From Kineococcus vitellinus (GTDB lineage Bacteria > Actinomycetota > Actinomycetes > Actinomycetales > Kineococcaceae): a DNA stretch of 32,556 nucleotides. The position numbers were made by a program, and so were the translations under genes. Positions 2,406 to 9,987 of this stretch are shown one piece after another. Within the stretch, counting starts at the first letter, position 1. Each line of letters begins with the position of its first letter. The notes under the pieces are model-generated. The model did no database searches. It was given only the letters and a program-made list of their open reading frames with translations, and had not been told where the DNA came from. The stretch covers positions 1-32,556 of the forward strand of contig NZ_JAAALL010000012.1 of NCBI RefSeq assembly GCF_009906315.1, written 5' to 3'.

Positions 2406-2474
2406 CGCGAGCCGACTTACAACCGATTTCACTTTGACATGCGAGGCCGCAGCGGTCGTTGCAGCTTTGTGCGC

Positions 2475-2844
2475 ATGGCCGACGAGGTGGTGTTGGAACG
2501 GATCGCGGAGCTGGTGCCGGACGAGCTGTGGCAGCGGGTGCAGCCGCTGCTGCACCAGCGCCCGCCCCGTCGCTTCCGCCACCCCGGCCGCCTGCCCCCG
2601 CGACGACCGCGCCGCACTGGCCGGCATCGTCCACGTCCTGATCACCGGCTGCACCTGGGCCCAGGTACCGACCGAGCAGCTCGGCTGCTCCGGCGTGACG
2701 TGCTGGCGACGACTGCGGGACTGGACCGAGGCCGGCGTCTGGCCGACCCTGCATCAGGTCCTGCTCGATGAGCTGCGCGCCGCCGGGAGACTGGACCTGA
2801 ACACCGCGGTGGTGGACGGCTCGCACGTGCGGGCCCTCAAAGGG
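2475..2844 (+). pseudogene. IS5-family transposase, N-terminal part (frameshifted)
   Basis: The N-terminal half of a DDE transposase of the IS5/IS427 type. It starts at MADEVVLERIAELVPDELW and runs through RFRHPGR in one frame, then continues as PRDDRAALAGIVHVLITG, CWRRLRDWTEAGVWPTLHQ and VVDGSHVRALKG in the +1 frame. The frame changes at a run of five C at 2595-2599, consistent with one extra or missing base. The first catalytic Asp is probably the one in VVDGSHVRA. The coding sequence stops at the IS110 insertion point after 2844; the rest of the gene is at 4343-4807. Confidence 0.85.
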
Positions 2845-2861
2845 TGTCCCTATGACCTCCG

Positions 2862-4127
2862 TCAAGCGGCAGCCAGCCCAGCAGGCGGTGTGACGGCGGG
2901 ATCCGGAGTTGGCCGGCGGTAGGGCTGCCCCGTTCTGATCATGGCATGCAGGACGTCGCATCGACGCCGCGCCAGGCAGAGCACCGCAGCAACGTGGTGC
3001 TTACCTTCGCGACGTTTGCGGTCGTAGTAGGCCCGGCTGGCCGGGTCGCGCAGGCTGGCGAAAGCCGACAAGTAGAGCACCCGCTTCAGATCACGGTTGC
3101 CGCGGCGGGCGGGGTGCTCGCCGCGGATGCTGCGCCCAGACTTCCGCGTCACCGGCGCCAGGCCGGCGTAGGACGCCAGGTGCGCGGCAGTTCGGAAGGC
3201 CGAGCCATCGCCGAGGGTGAGCAGGAGCTGGATGGCGGTCCTCACTCCGACCCCGGGCATCGAGGTGAGGACCGGGGCAAGAGGGTGCGCCTCCAGCAGA
3301 TCTTCCAGTTCCGCAGCCAGCTCGGCACGGGTGTCCAAAACCGTGCGCAATGAGGCAGCGAGGCCGCTGATCACCCGGCCGTACTGAGCGGTGCCGGCGA
3401 TGACGACGCTCTGCTCAGCCAAGGCGGCAAGGATCCGCGTGGGCAGCGTCTTGGCCAGCTGGGGTGAGCGCTTGGCCATCACCGCCGCCATGCCCTCCTT
3501 GCCCACTGCCTGCAATTGCTGCGGAGTTCCCGCTTCAGCGAGCAGGTCGAGCACACCACCACGACGCAAGTGCCTGCCCAGCAGTCGCTCCAGAGCCGGG
3601 TGAACGTGCAGGAGCGCGTCGTGCAGGCGGTTGGTTAGGCGGGTGGCTTCGGCGGCCAGGTCGGCGTCGTAGCCGGCCAGCACGCCCAGCGCGATGACGG
3701 TTTCATCGTCAGGGCCGACCCGGCGCAGTGTGTGCGGCAGGGTGCGGGCAGCGTCGGCGATGACGTAGCCATCGCGGGCGTCGGTCTTGGCTTCGCCGGG
3801 GTGCAGGTCGGCCAGGCGGCGCATCACCAGACCCGGCAGGTAAGCCACGTCCAGGCCCATCGACCGGGCAACCTCGACGGCCAGGGCGCCGATGGAGGCG
3901 GGCTGGTCCACGATCACCAGTACCGGGCCGTGCTCGGACAAGCTGGTGAACAACGCTCGCAGCGCGGTCTCGTCGTTGCGCAGCGGCGCATCAGCCAGAC
4001 GTCGCCCAGCGGTGTTCAAAGCGACGGCATGATGGTTCTCCCGCGCGACGTCGAGGCCGCAGAACACGGCATAGCCGAGACCATCGTCGGAGTCTGCGCC
4101 ATGGTGGCGCTTGTCGGATCCGGACAA
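2862..4127 (-). CDS. IS110-family transposase (DEDD recombinase)
   Basis: A 421-residue transposase of normal length. The N-terminal DEDD (RuvC-like) domain has Asp26 in FCGLDVARENHHAV, Asp74 in VIVDQPAS, and Asp116 and Asp119 in GEAKTDARDGYVIAD. The C-terminal Transposase_20 domain has LTSMPGVGVRTAIQLL, LASYAGLAPVTRKSG and RGNRDLKRVLY. The start codon is TTG at 4125-4127, preceded by GGAAGGAG with a short spacer, so this start is well supported. In this family the protein acts with a bridge RNA made from the element's leader. No inactivating change is visible, so this element may be active. Confidence 0.92.
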   Translation of the reverse strand: MSGSDKRHHGADSDDGLGYAVFCGLDVARENHHAVALNTAGRRLADAPLRNDETALRALFTSLSEHGPVLVIVDQPASIGALAVEVARSMGLDVAYLPGLVMRRLADLHPGEAKTDARDGYVIADAARTLPHTLRRVGPDDETVIALGVLAGYDADLAAEATRLTNRLHDALLHVHPALERLLGRHLRRGGVLDLLAEAGTPQQLQAVGKEGMAAVMAKRSPQLAKTLPTRILAALAEQSVVIAGTAQYGRVISGLAASLRTVLDTRAELAAELEDLLEAHPLAPVLTSMPGVGVRTAIQLLLTLGDGSAFRTAAHLASYAGLAPVTRKSGRSIRGEHPARRGNRDLKRVLYLSAFASLRDPASRAYYDRKRREGKHHVAAVLCLARRRCDVLHAMIRTGQPYRRPTPDPAVTPPAGLAAA

Positions 4128-4342
4128 GACCGCTCCTTCCGCACCGCTGCCAGGCCAGCCTGGACACCGCGCCGGCAGCCACGTTACGGAGGGCCTACAC
4201 GAATGCGGCCAGGTCCCTATCAGCGGTCACGAGCGCCCTGCGGTCCCGGCGACACCACCTTTTCGATCATGACGACAGGGGCTTCGAGTCATACCGGGGC
4301 CGCTGGCCTACACCCCCACCTTGGAGGCAAGAACAAGGTAAC
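4128..4342 (-). ncRNA. Candidate bridge RNA leader of the IS110-family element
   Basis: The leader lies 5' of the transposase on the minus strand. Read in that direction it contains a strong stem, GCGGCCCCGG (complement of 4294-4303) with CCGGGACCGC (complement of 4240-4249), ten pairs with one mismatch. Inside the loop are AGCCCC (4278-4283), identical to the sequence next to the insertion point, and AAAAGG (4258-4263), complementary to the other target side. A second, weaker loop holds ATAGGGAC (4213-4220), identical to the element's own 3' end, and GUAACG (4182-4187), complementary to its 5' end. The order target-left, target-right, donor-left, donor-right is that of the IS621 bridge RNA. 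The RNA's exact ends are unknown. Confidence 0.65.
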
Positions 4343-4807
4343 GGGGCTCACACCGGCCCTTCACCGGTAGACCGGGCCCGCAACGGATCCAAGCACCACC
4401 TCCTGACCGACGCCGGCGGTGTCCCGCTGGTCGTGACCCTCACCGGCGGCAATCGCCACGACGTCACCCAACTGCTGCCGCTGGTCGACGCCTTCCCACT
4501 CGTCCGCGGTGTCCGCGGCCGGCCCCGCCTGCACCCGAAGTACCTCTATGCCGACCGCGGCTACGACTACGACGTCTACCGCCGCGCCTTGCGCGACCGC
4601 GGCATCGTCCCGCGTATGGCTCGTCGCGGCGTCATCCACGGCTCAGGACTGGGCCGCATCCGCTGGGTCGTGGAACGCAGCTTTGCTTGGCTGCATCAGT
4701 TCAAACGGCTGCGGGTTCGCTACGAGGTTCGGGCTGATCTGCACTTGGGCCTGCTGCAGCTGGCATGCGCGCTGATCTGCTACCGCAAGCTGCCCGCGTC
4801 AAAGTGA
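4343..4807 (+). pseudogene. IS5-family transposase, C-terminal part
   Basis: The continuation of the interrupted transposase: GAHTGPSPVDRARNGSKHHL, then DAGGVPLVVTLTGGNRHDVT, a second catalytic Asp region YLYADRGYDYDVYRRALRDR, and the C-terminal catalytic Glu region IRWVVERSFAWLHQFKRLRV. The stop TGA at 4805-4807 lies inside the right inverted repeat. The part has no start of its own and is separated from the N-terminal half by the IS110 element. Confidence 0.9.
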
Positions 4808-5622: not shown

Positions 5623-5716
5623 CTCGGGGTGGTGGCCGGGGACAGGCGCACCTCACCGCGCGCGGCCGCTGAAGCCTGCCCCGGGCCGCGCCAGTGGATC
5701 GCCGACGGGCTTTCGC

Positions 5717-5842
5717 GATGTCGAGCACTGCGATGTCGAGCACTGCGATGTCGAGCACTGCGATGTCGAGCACTGCGATGTCGAGCACTGCGATGTCGAG
5801 CACTGCGATGTCGAGCACTGCGATGTCGAGCACTGCGATGTC
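5717..5842. repeat. 15-bp tandem repeat, eight copies (minisatellite)
   Basis: The unit GATGTCGAGCACTGC is repeated eight times without a single mismatch at 5717-5836, followed by a partial unit GATGTC. Because the period is a multiple of three, every frame stays open and gives artificial repeats (MSSTA, HCDVE, LDIAV). Perfect identity suggests recent expansion by slippage. Confidence 0.95.
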
Positions 5843-7215: not shown

Positions 7216-7345
7216 TCTCGGCGGGCAGGTTGACGATGGTGACCGTCCTGCCCTCCGAGCCTGCTGCTGGTGTTCTCGGCGGGCAGGTTGGCGATGGTGA
7301 CCGTCCTGCCCTCCGAGCCTGCTGCTGGTGTTCTCGGCGGGCAGG
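7216..7345. repeat. 58-bp direct repeats, each forming a hairpin
   Basis: Two copies of a 58-bp unit (7216-7273 and 7274-7331) differ at one base. A third, partial copy starts at 7332 and diverges after about 14 bases. Within each full unit CTCGGCGGGCAGG can pair with CCTGCCCTCCGAG around a 17-base loop, 12 of 13 positions. The array lies between the stop of the primase-like gene and the start of the next minus-strand gene. Iterons, a transcript-processing or attenuation element, or a replication origin part are all possible. Confidence 0.9.
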
Positions 7346-7431
7346 ATGGCCGCCGTGACCGGGCGCGTTAGCGGCAGAGCCCTCAGCGCCCGGTGCACGC
7401 GCGTGTGCGGCGCGCCGGCGCGCGCTGGTGG

Positions 7432-9831
7432 CTAGGAGGGCACGGGCTTCGAGGTCGACGTGGCGGCGCTGCGCGCATCAGCGCTGGCCGCATCAGCGCT
7501 GGCCGCATCAGCGCTGGCCACGCCCGCGCTGGCGGCATCTGCTGAAGCCATGGCCGCCTCGTACCAGGCCAGGTCGGCGGCGCTGGCGCGCTCCGCCTCC
7601 GCCTCGTCAAGCCATGCGCTGCCGCCGTGGCCGTCAGCGCGTCGAACACCGCCATGGCCGGCCCTGGTGGCGCCGAGTTCCATCACAACCTCAGCGGGGG
7701 CGTTGAAGTGGCGCAGCCACCGCTGCTCCCACGCCTGGCGCTCCTCACGAATGCGTGTGGCTAGGCGCTCAGTGACGCTGTTCACCCCGAGCGTGGTGGC
7801 CACCTGATCCAAGGTGGCCGGCCCCCGCAGCCACCGCGTTCCGTCCATAGTGGCCAGCCCGTGTGCGTGCAGCCTGCGCAGCACGGTCCGCATCCCGCAC
7901 GCGCTCATGCCCGCAGCCTCGGCCAGTTGGGTCAGGGTGCTGGGCTGGTGCAGCAGCCCGTAGACCAGCCAGGCCCGCTTGCCCAGACCTGCAGCTGCAC
8001 GCCTTGAAGTGTCGGAGGTATGACAGACGTGCCCACTCTCGATACCGCCCCCCTCAACGGCTTCGGGCTGAATGCGCGCAGCGCGCTCGCTCCACAGTTC
8101 GTGACCTACGCTGGCGCCATCGACAACGTAGAACCGCGCGGGCAGCGGCCCGACCACATTGACCCCACTGCCACCGTCACCGGTCTCTTGAGGAACCGTC
8201 AGGCGATAGCAGTGAGGGGTGAACGCCTCGGCCAGCGCACCAGCGGGCTCGCCGGCCCGCTCAGGTTGAGGCCGACGCACCTCCACGACCATCAGGAAGC
8301 CGGCCTCCTGCAGCTTGCGACGTGCGCCGCGGGCGTGGTGGCGCCCAAGCTGCAAGGCCAGCTGTTGCAGTTGCCGCTCCGAGGCGCCGTAGCCCTCAGC
8401 CGTCCCGGCCTGCAGCGCGATCAGGCAGTGCGCTTGCAGGTGCGCCAGGACCCCGGGGCGCTCCTGCACGCCCCAGGGGTAGCGCTCGGCGGCGGCGCGC
8501 ACCCGCGCCAGGTGCCCGAGCAGGTCCTCCGCCTGCACCGTCGCCACCATGGTGGCGCTGTCCCCGCCGCTGGTGAAACCGTCACGAGGTCGCCCAGCGC
8601 CGCTGCTCGCAGTACCCGCGCGGGCGGCGTCCTCGGCGCGCAGTTGCGTCAGCCTCGCCGCTACCCGGCGGTAAGTACCCCGCGCCCAGCGTTCCGGTGT
8701 GTACTTCGCCCGGGCTGAGCGGCGCCAGGCGTGACGGCACCCGGCCATGCGCCGGTTGGTGGCCAGCGCGGTGAACCAGTCCTCGGAGAGCCCGTTGGCC
8801 CAGCAGGCACACGCGAGGATCCACAGCATCCGCGACTCATCGGCGCGCCCGTCCCTTCCGCGGGGTACCAGCGGCCCTGCAGCATCGCGAGCCAGCATCC
8901 ACTGCTCAGCGCTCAGATCACCTCGTCCGGTGCGGCGGCGCCTGAGACGGGCTGGGCGCGGCGCGGGCACTGCCAGGCGCTGCCATCCGGCGGTGTCCTG
9001 CTCGCGCCGCCTCCGCGCCGGATCCTCCTGCCTGCGCCGCTTGCTCACTGCGTTCTGCTGGCCGGTCCGGTGATAGGTGCCGCGAGGGCTCCGCCGAGTG
9101 CCGGCCGAGGGAGCTGTGACTGCTGTGCTGTGCGCCGTCGTGCCCGCTCCTGCCGTGGCCGCCGTGGTGTGGGCGTGACCGGCCTTGGAACGCCGGGTCG
9201 TGGCGGTGCTGGCCGGTTGGTCGAGCCCGAGCAGGCTGATCACCTCGGGGATGCTGAGGCTGGAATCCAGCCGTGAGGGCGGCAGCCCGGGCAGGCGGTG
9301 CGGGGCGCCCGGCGGGCGGATCAGTGAGCCGCCCTCGCGCAGCTGCGAGGAGGGCACCAGCTTGGCGACATACCTGCCGAACGCGGTGCGCTGTTGCGGG
9401 GCGACGGCCGCGTACACATGCGCATGACCGGGCTGGCCAGAGAGCGCGAAGACCGCGCGGATTCCCTGAGCCCGGCACCAGGTCAGCAGCTGGTGAGTGG
9501 CCACATCGCCGTCCACGCCATCGAGGTCGACGTCCGCGGCTACGAGGCCGGCCCGCAGCTCGATGGCGAAGGTGGCGGCTGGTGAGTGGGGGTCGTTGAC
9601 CTTGCGCCAGGCGGCGTGGACGGTGGCGACGGTGCCGGGGGAGGTGTTGTCGGGACTGATCAAGCGTACCCGGCGACCGGGCGCGGCCAGCGCCTGCTGC
9701 AGGCGCACCAGCTCAGGGCTGGGCTGGTGCGCCTGCGCAACTGGCAGGGACCGGTCAGGATGTGATGTGGATAGCGCAGTAGGCGCCGGAGTGGGTGCCG
9801 TAGGCGCGGTGGGGTGGGGACTAGAGCTCAT
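7432..9831 (-). CDS. Primase-like (AEP/PrimPol-type) replication protein with C-terminal winged helix
   Basis: A large protein of about 799 residues, or 851 if the in-frame GTG at 9987 is used. Neither start has a strong ribosome-binding site, and the extra N-terminus is low-complexity. Near the N-terminus are the signs of an archaeo-eukaryotic primase fold: DVDLDG (Asp pair for metal binding), then LSGQPGHAHVY (the S-x-H type motif) and LIRPPGAPHR. A very basic middle part follows, then LSAEQWMLARD and a region with SEDWFTALATNRRMAGCRHA, typical of plasmid/phage replicative primases. A winged-helix segment, TLTQLAEAAGMSACGMRTVL, lies towards the C-terminus. The C-terminus is an Ala-Ser-Asp repeat tail. 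It probably initiates or primes replication of this replicon or element; the family is inferred from motifs only. Confidence 0.65.
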   Translation of the reverse strand: MSSSPHPTAPTAPTPAPTALSTSHPDRSLPVAQAHQPSPELVRLQQALAAPGRRVRLISPDNTSPGTVATVHAAWRKVNDPHSPAATFAIELRAGLVAADVDLDGVDGDVATHQLLTWCRAQGIRAVFALSGQPGHAHVYAAVAPQQRTAFGRYVAKLVPSSQLREGGSLIRPPGAPHRLPGLPPSRLDSSLSIPEVISLLGLDQPASTATTRRSKAGHAHTTAATAGAGTTAHSTAVTAPSAGTRRSPRGTYHRTGQQNAVSKRRRQEDPARRRREQDTAGWQRLAVPAPRPARLRRRRTGRGDLSAEQWMLARDAAGPLVPRGRDGRADESRMLWILACACWANGLSEDWFTALATNRRMAGCRHAWRRSARAKYTPERWARGTYRRVAARLTQLRAEDAARAGTASSGAGRPRDGFTSGGDSATMVATVQAEDLLGHLARVRAAAERYPWGVQERPGVLAHLQAHCLIALQAGTAEGYGASERQLQQLALQLGRHHARGARRKLQEAGFLMVVEVRRPQPERAGEPAGALAEAFTPHCYRLTVPQETGDGGSGVNVVGPLPARFYVVDGASVGHELWSERAARIQPEAVEGGGIESGHVCHTSDTSRRAAAGLGKRAWLVYGLLHQPSTLTQLAEAAGMSACGMRTVLRRLHAHGLATMDGTRWLRGPATLDQVATTLGVNSVTERLATRIREERQAWEQRWLRHFNAPAEVVMELGATRAGHGGVRRADGHGGSAWLDEAEAERASAADLAWYEAAMASADAASAGVASADAASADAASADARSAATSTSKPVPS
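7475..7519. repeat. 15-bp tandem repeat, three copies, in the primase-like gene
   Basis: GCATCAGCGCTGGCC is repeated three times exactly, with degenerate copies after it. It encodes the Ala-Ser-Ala-Asp-Ala repeats at the C-terminus of the minus-strand primase-like protein and is likely prone to copy-number change. Confidence 0.85.
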
Positions 9832-9987
9832 GGTGGCCTGCCGTTCGGGTGCACCCGGCAGGCCCCTAGGGGGCAGACCGGGGACCGGGCAGGGCGCCCG
9901 GTCGAGCAGCGCCATCGGCAGGCAGGCTGGCACCTCGGCACTTGGGGGCGCTGCCACAGCCGGGCGCGATGGCGCCGGGGCCTGCAC

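Follow-up and report, generated by a model that had tools for sequence, protein, structure and literature searches.

The window, the whole 32,556-nucleotide stretch analyzed here (a 32.6 kb contig of the Kineococcus vitellinus genome, which totals 4.86 Mb), carries an IS110-group element whose recombinase gene lies within an IS5-type transposase gene (Table 1). Read on the minus strand, the element begins with the G at 4342 and ends with the core A at 2845, and one core C is common to element and target (2844/4343). The recombinase matches DEDD_Tnp_IS110 (PF01548, 6.8e-42) and Transposase_20 (PF02371, 4e-22), in both cases exceeding the curated cut-off, and its C-terminal domain, though only that domain, matches the IS621 chain 8wt6 (phmmer, 1.2e-12) and also the ISCro4 chain in the PDB. 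The conserved C-terminal serine is present, with the Ser of "trkSgrs" aligned to that of "yeSgss" in 8wt6; allowing for a chain offset of two residues, it would correspond to S241 of IS621. Among the DEDD residues, a KTDxxD stretch is common to the recombinase and ISCro4 in an alignment that is itself non-significant, and the counterpart of E60 looks by eye to be an Asp. Non-coding sequence extends for 215 nt upstream of the recombinase gene versus 17 nt downstream, and the element thus lacks the long downstream non-coding region of the IS1111 group. The element is present as one copy in its own genome.

Elsewhere in the window, a perfect tandem array at 5715-5842 (8.5 copies of the 15-bp unit GCGATGTCGAGCACT, 100% identity) overlaps ORFs on both strands. 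Further arrays occupy 7216-7350 (2.3 copies of a 58-bp unit, 97%) and 7466-7539 (4.9 copies of a 15-bp unit, 83%), the latter at the C-terminal end of an 851-aa ORF (7432-9987, minus strand) that had no Pfam match at 0.001.

Table 1. Features of the element, its leader, and its insertion site (window coordinates)
Feature	Position	Strand	Basis
IS110-group element	2845..4342	minus	Junctions against uninterrupted copies; ends conserved in relatives
IS110 recombinase (transposase), 421 aa, TTG start (tentative)	2862..4127	minus	ORF, Pfam, PDB-chain match
IS5-type transposase, first part (orfA, DUF4096), up to AAAGGG tract	2439..2844	plus	Pfam; uninterrupted copies
IS5-type transposase, second part (orfB, DDE_Tnp_1)	4346..4807	plus	Pfam; tblastn and frames
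Non-coding left end (leader) holding predicted bridge-RNA sequence	4128..4342	minus	Alignments of 97 and 41 leaders; folds
Target-binding stem, 5' arm (predicted)	4294..4308	minus	Consensus folds, two-sided changes
Left target guide (LTG) CGAAGCCCC	4278..4286	minus	LTG/LT permutation 0/20,000; scan diagonal
Right target guide (RTG) CGAAAAGG	4258..4265	minus	RTG/RT permutation 0/20,000; scan anti-diagonal; 12 further loci
Target-binding stem, 3' arm (predicted)	4235..4249	minus	Consensus folds, two-sided changes
Donor-binding stem, 5' arm (predicted, approximate; several outer pairs non-standard in the window row)	4223..4238	minus	Consensus folds
Left donor guide (LDG) ATAGGGAC	4213..4220	minus	LDG/LD permutation 0/20,000
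Right donor guide (RDG) GTAACGT	4181..4187	minus	RDG/RD permutation 109/20,000; compensated end changes
Donor-binding stem, 3' arm (predicted, approximate)	4169..4183	minus	Consensus folds
Right donor (RD) GTTACC, element start	4337..4342	minus	Read from sequence
Left donor (LD) ATAGGGAC, then core AC (2845-2844)	2846..2853	minus	Read from sequence
Left target (LT) GTGAGCCCC, core CC at 4344-4343	4343..4351	minus	Read from sequence
Right target (RT) CCTTTGAG	2836..2843	minus	Read from sequence
TTGAC, -35-like box in right end, 7 nt before LD	2861..2865	minus	Coordinates
TACCTT, -10-like box in left end	4335..4340	minus	TAnnnT in relatives' left ends

Guide matches in the leader

An earlier note on this DNA had proposed that the leader contains four short guides to the element's own ends and its target, arranged as in a bridge RNA. 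All four matches are where the note placed them, and the target guides do precede the donor guides; the guide sequences CGAAGCCCC, CGAAAAGG, ATAGGGAC, and GTAACGT have one occurrence apiece in the leader. Six of the nine LTG bases match the left flank, the last two lying on the core; the AGCCCC within it (4283-4278) is identical to the minus-strand flank at 4348-4343. The LDG equals the element's 3' (right) end at 2853-2846 in 8/8 bases, and the RDG complements ACGTTAC, that is, the core AC followed by the element's left end. When the 215-nt leader was shuffled 20,000 times with its dinucleotides preserved, the four matches never arose together. Taken singly, AGCCCC was found in 2421 shuffles, AAAGG in 4116, the LDG in 30, and the RDG in 948; the note had cautioned that the single matches are short, and the two target matches are indeed weak on their own because each is frequent in shuffled leaders. 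The note's match between the AAAGG of AAAAGG (4263-4258) and CCTTT (2843-2839, minus strand) is present but stands one base out of the family-wide register, in which 4259-4263 lie opposite RT+1 to RT+5 with four of five bases paired and a mismatch at RT+2, and 4258 pairs with the core C.

Relatives were collected from 28 places in 19 of 393 other genomes of the class and from the best 80 of 116 loci in named genomes. A tblastn hit was obtained at 110 loci, one of which (L001) repeats the window, leaving 109 with the window included; ten had no recognizable left end and two (L071, L094) too little upstream sequence, which left 97 leaders, and one of these (L028) lacks a target loop, so that 96 loci were parsed for leader and guides, with right ends in 86. 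Recombinase identity in the best segment is 49-72%. Left ends were located by a loose match to the consensus, and the search rule for right ends itself required a -35-like box at 6-8 nt. Thirteen stretches of viral contigs matched a search pattern, with no relative among them, and the leader had no Rfam match at the gathering threshold.

Covariation of guides with flanks and ends

Guides were compared with their flanks in a fixed register, with one row per distinct guide and the flanks permuted 20,000 times. RTGs (15 guides) gave 4.60 matches to the six bases after the core versus 2.65 expected (0/20,000); LTGs (43 guides), 5.49 matches to nine bases versus 4.81 (0/20,000); LDGs (17 guides), 6.76 matches to LD versus 5.75 (0/20,000); and RDGs, with only six distinct guides, 5.00 matches to RD versus 4.11 (109/20,000). 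The RTG is of the C-tract type, for which matches are cheap, in 77 of the 96 loci; however, the ten RTG classes that do not start with CCCC gave 4.60 of six matches against 2.34 expected (0/20,000), and seven natural RTG classes outside the C-tract type have fitting right flanks. The behavior by which the note had suggested its proposal be judged, loops that change with target and donor sequence across relatives, is therefore seen in all four guides and at fixed positions.

Because this register was first seen on the same loci on which it was then tested, 208 testable left-end columns (gene start included) were also scanned against 28 flank positions, in both senses, over 53 distinct-guide loci. 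The seven highest-ranking of the 11,208 tests fall within stretches marked in the earlier note: five pair the RTG with RT+5 to RT+1 by complementarity, and two match the LTG to LT-2 and LT-4 by identity. Shifting the register in one direction lowered z for the RTG from 5.9 at zero to 1.8 at one base and 2.9 at two, and for the LTG from 4.2 to 1.6. RTG and right flank also differ together between elements whose recombinases are 84-88% identical (L009/L035, L075/L087, L087/L072).

A donor-loop pattern found 20 places in 16 of 343 genomes of one genus. Three of these repeat insertions of the first set (L142, L130, and L131 correspond to L009, L035, and L034), with the same flanks, and as two of the matching loci belong to named Streptomyces records, the genus is Streptomyces. 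L145 is a copy of L135; L132 and L136 were unparsed and L137 and L143 lack a right end, leaving 12 further distinct insertions for RT and nine for LT. The RTG complement equals the right flank at five of five bases in all 12 (CTTTT in ten, TTTTT in two), whereas either sequence fits only 4 of the 85 right flanks in the first set. The ten CTTTT loci have the RTG class of the window, whose own flank is CCTTT. Permutation among these loci is weak, there being two like RTG classes (317 of 20,000 for RT; 470 of 20,000 for LT, nine loci). Bias from the choice of register affects the scan and these 12 loci less than it does the permutations of the first set.

Three loci of one Streptomyces genome (L135, L145, L147) and L134 carry sequence ending in CTATCACA or CTCTCACA to the left of GTTACC, and not the usual C-ended target. 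The left 120 nt are identical in the former three, and the right flank of L147 differs; the left end of this group may be extended or rearranged.

Individual relatives illustrate the range of fits. The closest relative with a leader (L111, 72-73% in aligned segments) has LTG CACGGCTCC and left flank TTCGGCTCCC, which fit one base out of register, and an RTG complement of CTCTGA against a right flank of CTCTGT. L087, L105, and L106 combine LTG GTGACGCTC with left flanks ending in ACGC(T/C)C, and RTG complement GCTCAG with right flanks GCTCA(C/G); L075, 88% identical to L087, has TCTCAG with flank TCTCAC, a compensated change at RT+1. In L064, the RTG complement AAATCA accompanies the flank AAATCC. 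Donor ends ATAGGGAC, ATAGGGGC, ATAGAGGC, and ATAGAAGC are paired with like LDGs in most loci, and RDG changes track the left ends ATTAC (L014), GTTATG (L015), and GTTACA (L022). Matches are poor in the RTG, LDG, and RDG of L100, and a left-end change in L046 is uncompensated.

L087, L105, and L106 are copies in one Arthrobacter genome at sites of the ACGCTC/GCTCA type; their right flanks, judged by eye, repeat a like motif shortly after, and the site is perhaps a repeated genomic motif. In three C-tract elements (L086, L104, L059), the right flank starts like another member's left end (CCGTTACC, CCCGTTATG, GTTATC), for which adjacent insertions or recombination with a circle junction are possible readings.

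Consensus fold and putative junction promoter

Folded by itself, the window leader is no more stable than its shuffles (z -0.22), so the structural model rests on the relatives. Folding 41 leaders to a consensus gives 26 pairs, and two-sided changes occur in 13 of these (raw counts); two of the 13 are GTTAC/GTAAC pairs and three are LTG/RTG pairs, and eight remain without them. For the inner region, the consensus of 36 leaders has 35 pairs, with 1174 of 1255 cells standard and two-sided changes in 22 pairs, three of them LTG/RTG (19 of 32 without LTG/RTG; raw counts). Target and donor loops are both closed by stems with two-sided compensatory changes; the outer donor stem includes several non-standard pairs in the window row of the 36-leader alignment. 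RNAalifold also pairs the LTG with the RTG and GTTAC with the RDG; these were rejected as helices and read as C-tract complementarity and as the RDG/RD match, respectively.

The window's TACCTT would stand 18 nt from TTGACG across a circle junction. Among the relatives, TTGAC lies at 7 nt in 83 of 86 right ends and at 6 nt in two, with TTGGC at 7 nt in one, although the box was part of the search rule; TAnnnT is present in 94 of 96 left ends, themselves found by a loose consensus match.

Empty site and core

An uninterrupted copy of the IS5-type gene in the same genome (contig C673, L114/L122) has AAAGGGGGG at the site, as do copies in two other genomes (L117, L120), with six G's; the site differs in a second copy from the window's genome (C444, L115). 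We therefore read the left and right flanks as having one C in common, and the element-strand target as GTGAGCCCCCCTTTGAG. The flank matches claimed in the earlier note stand, with the correction that the empty site has six C's, of which a single one is common to both flanks. An empty site with four C's, deduced from the reading frame, was dropped, since the uninterrupted copies show six together with a frame change; a shared CC or CCC core was likewise dropped.

Among the relatives, the left core is CC in 90, TC in five, and GC in one of 96, and the right core is AC in 80, CC in four, and AA in one of 85 complete cores. This is read as a two-base core with a shared second base; its first base would come from the target on the left and usually from the donor on the right. 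Donor and target cores would accordingly be unequal, the donor having AC and the target NC, mostly CC; the identical CT core in donor and target that marks an IS621-like subgroup is absent.

In the leader, the RTG is followed by GTG and the RDG by TGG, both nearly fixed. These bases could pair with the partner DNA's core and its neighbors (AC, CC), by analogy with the handshake guides of IS621, and vary too little for covariation to bear on this.

IS5-type transposase genes as a target

With the IS5-type protein of the window as query, tblastn was run on 91 left and 83 right flanks from the 96 loci. An IS5-type gene lies at the insertion in five of the eight loci with an A-tract RTG (the window, L009, L034, L037, L038) versus none of the 88 others (Fisher 9e-7), and in 6 of the 13 further distinct loci with a testable flank (L129, L133, L135, L137, L139, L141). 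Overall, 11 of 21 insertions with A-tract RTGs are in IS5-type transposase genes, mostly in one codon stretch: in both sets, the IS5 alignments end at residue 135-136 of the first part and resume at residue 1-3 of the second, except that the second part resumes at 6 in L137 and at 10 in L139, the latter a weak match (2e-4). The IS5 match is on one side only in L037, L038, L135, L137, and L139. A-tract insertions outside IS5-type genes were translated and judged by eye only.

The targeted position falls soon after the motif VDGSHVRA, at a tract where the reading frame changes. The second part is in the -1 frame in seven of nine distinct uninterrupted copies from the window genome and relatives, six of them with an A/G tract, and likewise in the four uninterrupted Streptomyces copies found (two of them identical). 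The A/G tract is probably the frameshift site of the IS5-type gene; in the IS427 group of IS5 elements, a conserved frameshift motif is described together with two overlapping ORFs (PMC3281130).

As a background control, 30 of 65 CCCCCTTTT sites in six Streptomyces genomes were tested, and 4 of these 30 lie at the same IS5 position. Occupancy of 11/21 exceeds this background (Fisher 0.004; 0.04 for the new loci alone, 6/13); therefore, the guide fits sites with a C run and a T run at large, and IS5 tracts form a rich but non-exclusive target. It is tempting to propose, at a little under even odds for the two statements jointly, that in one lineage of this clade the target loops (an LTG ending in a C run and an RTG with an A run) are tuned to the antisense of the A3-6G5-6 IS5 frameshift tract, so homing on a stretch that a rival cannot easily change and splitting its transposase, and that the clade recombines unequal cores, donor AC with target NC, of which only the second base is common.

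A probable bridge RNA of the IS110 group

Because the guides covary with flanks and element ends at fixed positions, including in the 12 further insertions, the leader most probably encodes a bridge RNA of the IS110 group comparable to that of IS621, a reading to which we assign a probability of about 0.93. The element would excise as a circle whose joined ends form a promoter, with TTGAC from the right end and TAnnnT from the left. The transcript would fold into two stem-loops and bind the recombinase; the first loop (LTG, RTG) would pair with both strands of the target and the second (LDG, RDG) with the joined ends; strand exchange by the recombinase would follow at the core. For this copy, the target would be the A3G6 tract that separates the two reading frames of the IS5-type transposase gene.

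A rider on this reading, and no alternative to it, is that the bridge RNA is real but this particular copy is dead. The single genomic copy, the RTG mismatch at RT+2, and the LTG match of only 6/9 point that way; however, the 421-aa recombinase ORF is uninterrupted, the element has both of its ends and both boxes, and zero to two mismatches between guide and consensus target are described as usual in natural elements (PMC11208160), so that inactivity appears unlikely. Alternatively, the leader could be a structured 5' region of the ordinary type or act as a small regulatory RNA, with the protein choosing the target; this would account for its stems, as structured leaders with covarying stems also occur in regulatory RNAs. 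Small RNAs are, moreover, thought to modulate the IS110-family element ISPpu9 (PMC11208160). This explanation is nonetheless highly improbable, as the variable bases of the first loop track the flanks base by base, through complementarity on one side and through identity on the other. Coincidence, in the form of short matches in a GC-rich leader beside a low-complexity target, draws on the frequency of the single target matches in shuffles and on the predominance of C-tract RTGs, but is scarcely credible given that the four matches never arose together and that covariation holds in the ten non-CCCC RTG classes and at the 12 further loci.

The bridge-RNA reading agrees with IS621, for which the same guide order and strands are published (PMC11208160, PMC11208158). 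As there, the RNA would lie in the left end upstream of the recombinase and have two loops, the target loop first; LTG and LDG would pair with the bottom strand and RTG and RDG with the top strand; a promoter may be rebuilt across the circle junction; and the second core base is nearly invariant. The IS621 core is CT in both donor and target, with an almost invariant second base (PMC11208158), whereas here the donor core is AC and the target core NC. The recombinases differ as well, with 421 aa here against 328 in the 8wt6 chain and a phmmer match in the C-terminal domain only.

A second parallel is ISEc21, in which a non-coding region upstream likewise contains a bottom-strand match that precedes a top-strand match, and whose target also lies inside the transposase gene of another IS family (PMC11187229). 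That target consists of IS3 codons around the second D of the DDE triad (PMC11187229), as opposed to the IS5-type frame-change tract here. The RNA of ISEc21 is a seekRNA, and the one described here is predicted from sequence. By its name, the IS110-family element ISAar29 has an Arthrobacter-type host. It is likewise listed with predicted guides (PMC11208160).

Published work already covers IS110 bridge RNAs, the order of the guides, their covariation across thousands of elements, and re-aiming in nature (PMC11208160, PMC11208158, PMC11187229), and the large published IS110 set may well contain these elements. The literature searched, supplementary tables aside, describes neither the guides of this clade nor any targeting of IS5 frameshift tracts by IS110 elements. 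What is new relative to known bridge RNAs, in an otherwise well-supported member of the group, would be the unequal core and the notable IS5 target.

Target and donor guides can be read in this clade of actinobacterial IS110 elements, and its natural changes of guide with target form a record of bridge-RNA re-aiming. Elements of the clade are candidates for work in GC-rich hosts. The IS5 link, if it holds, would join ISEc21 with IS3 as the second example of an RNA-guided transposon directed at a conserved segment within the transposase gene of a different transposon.
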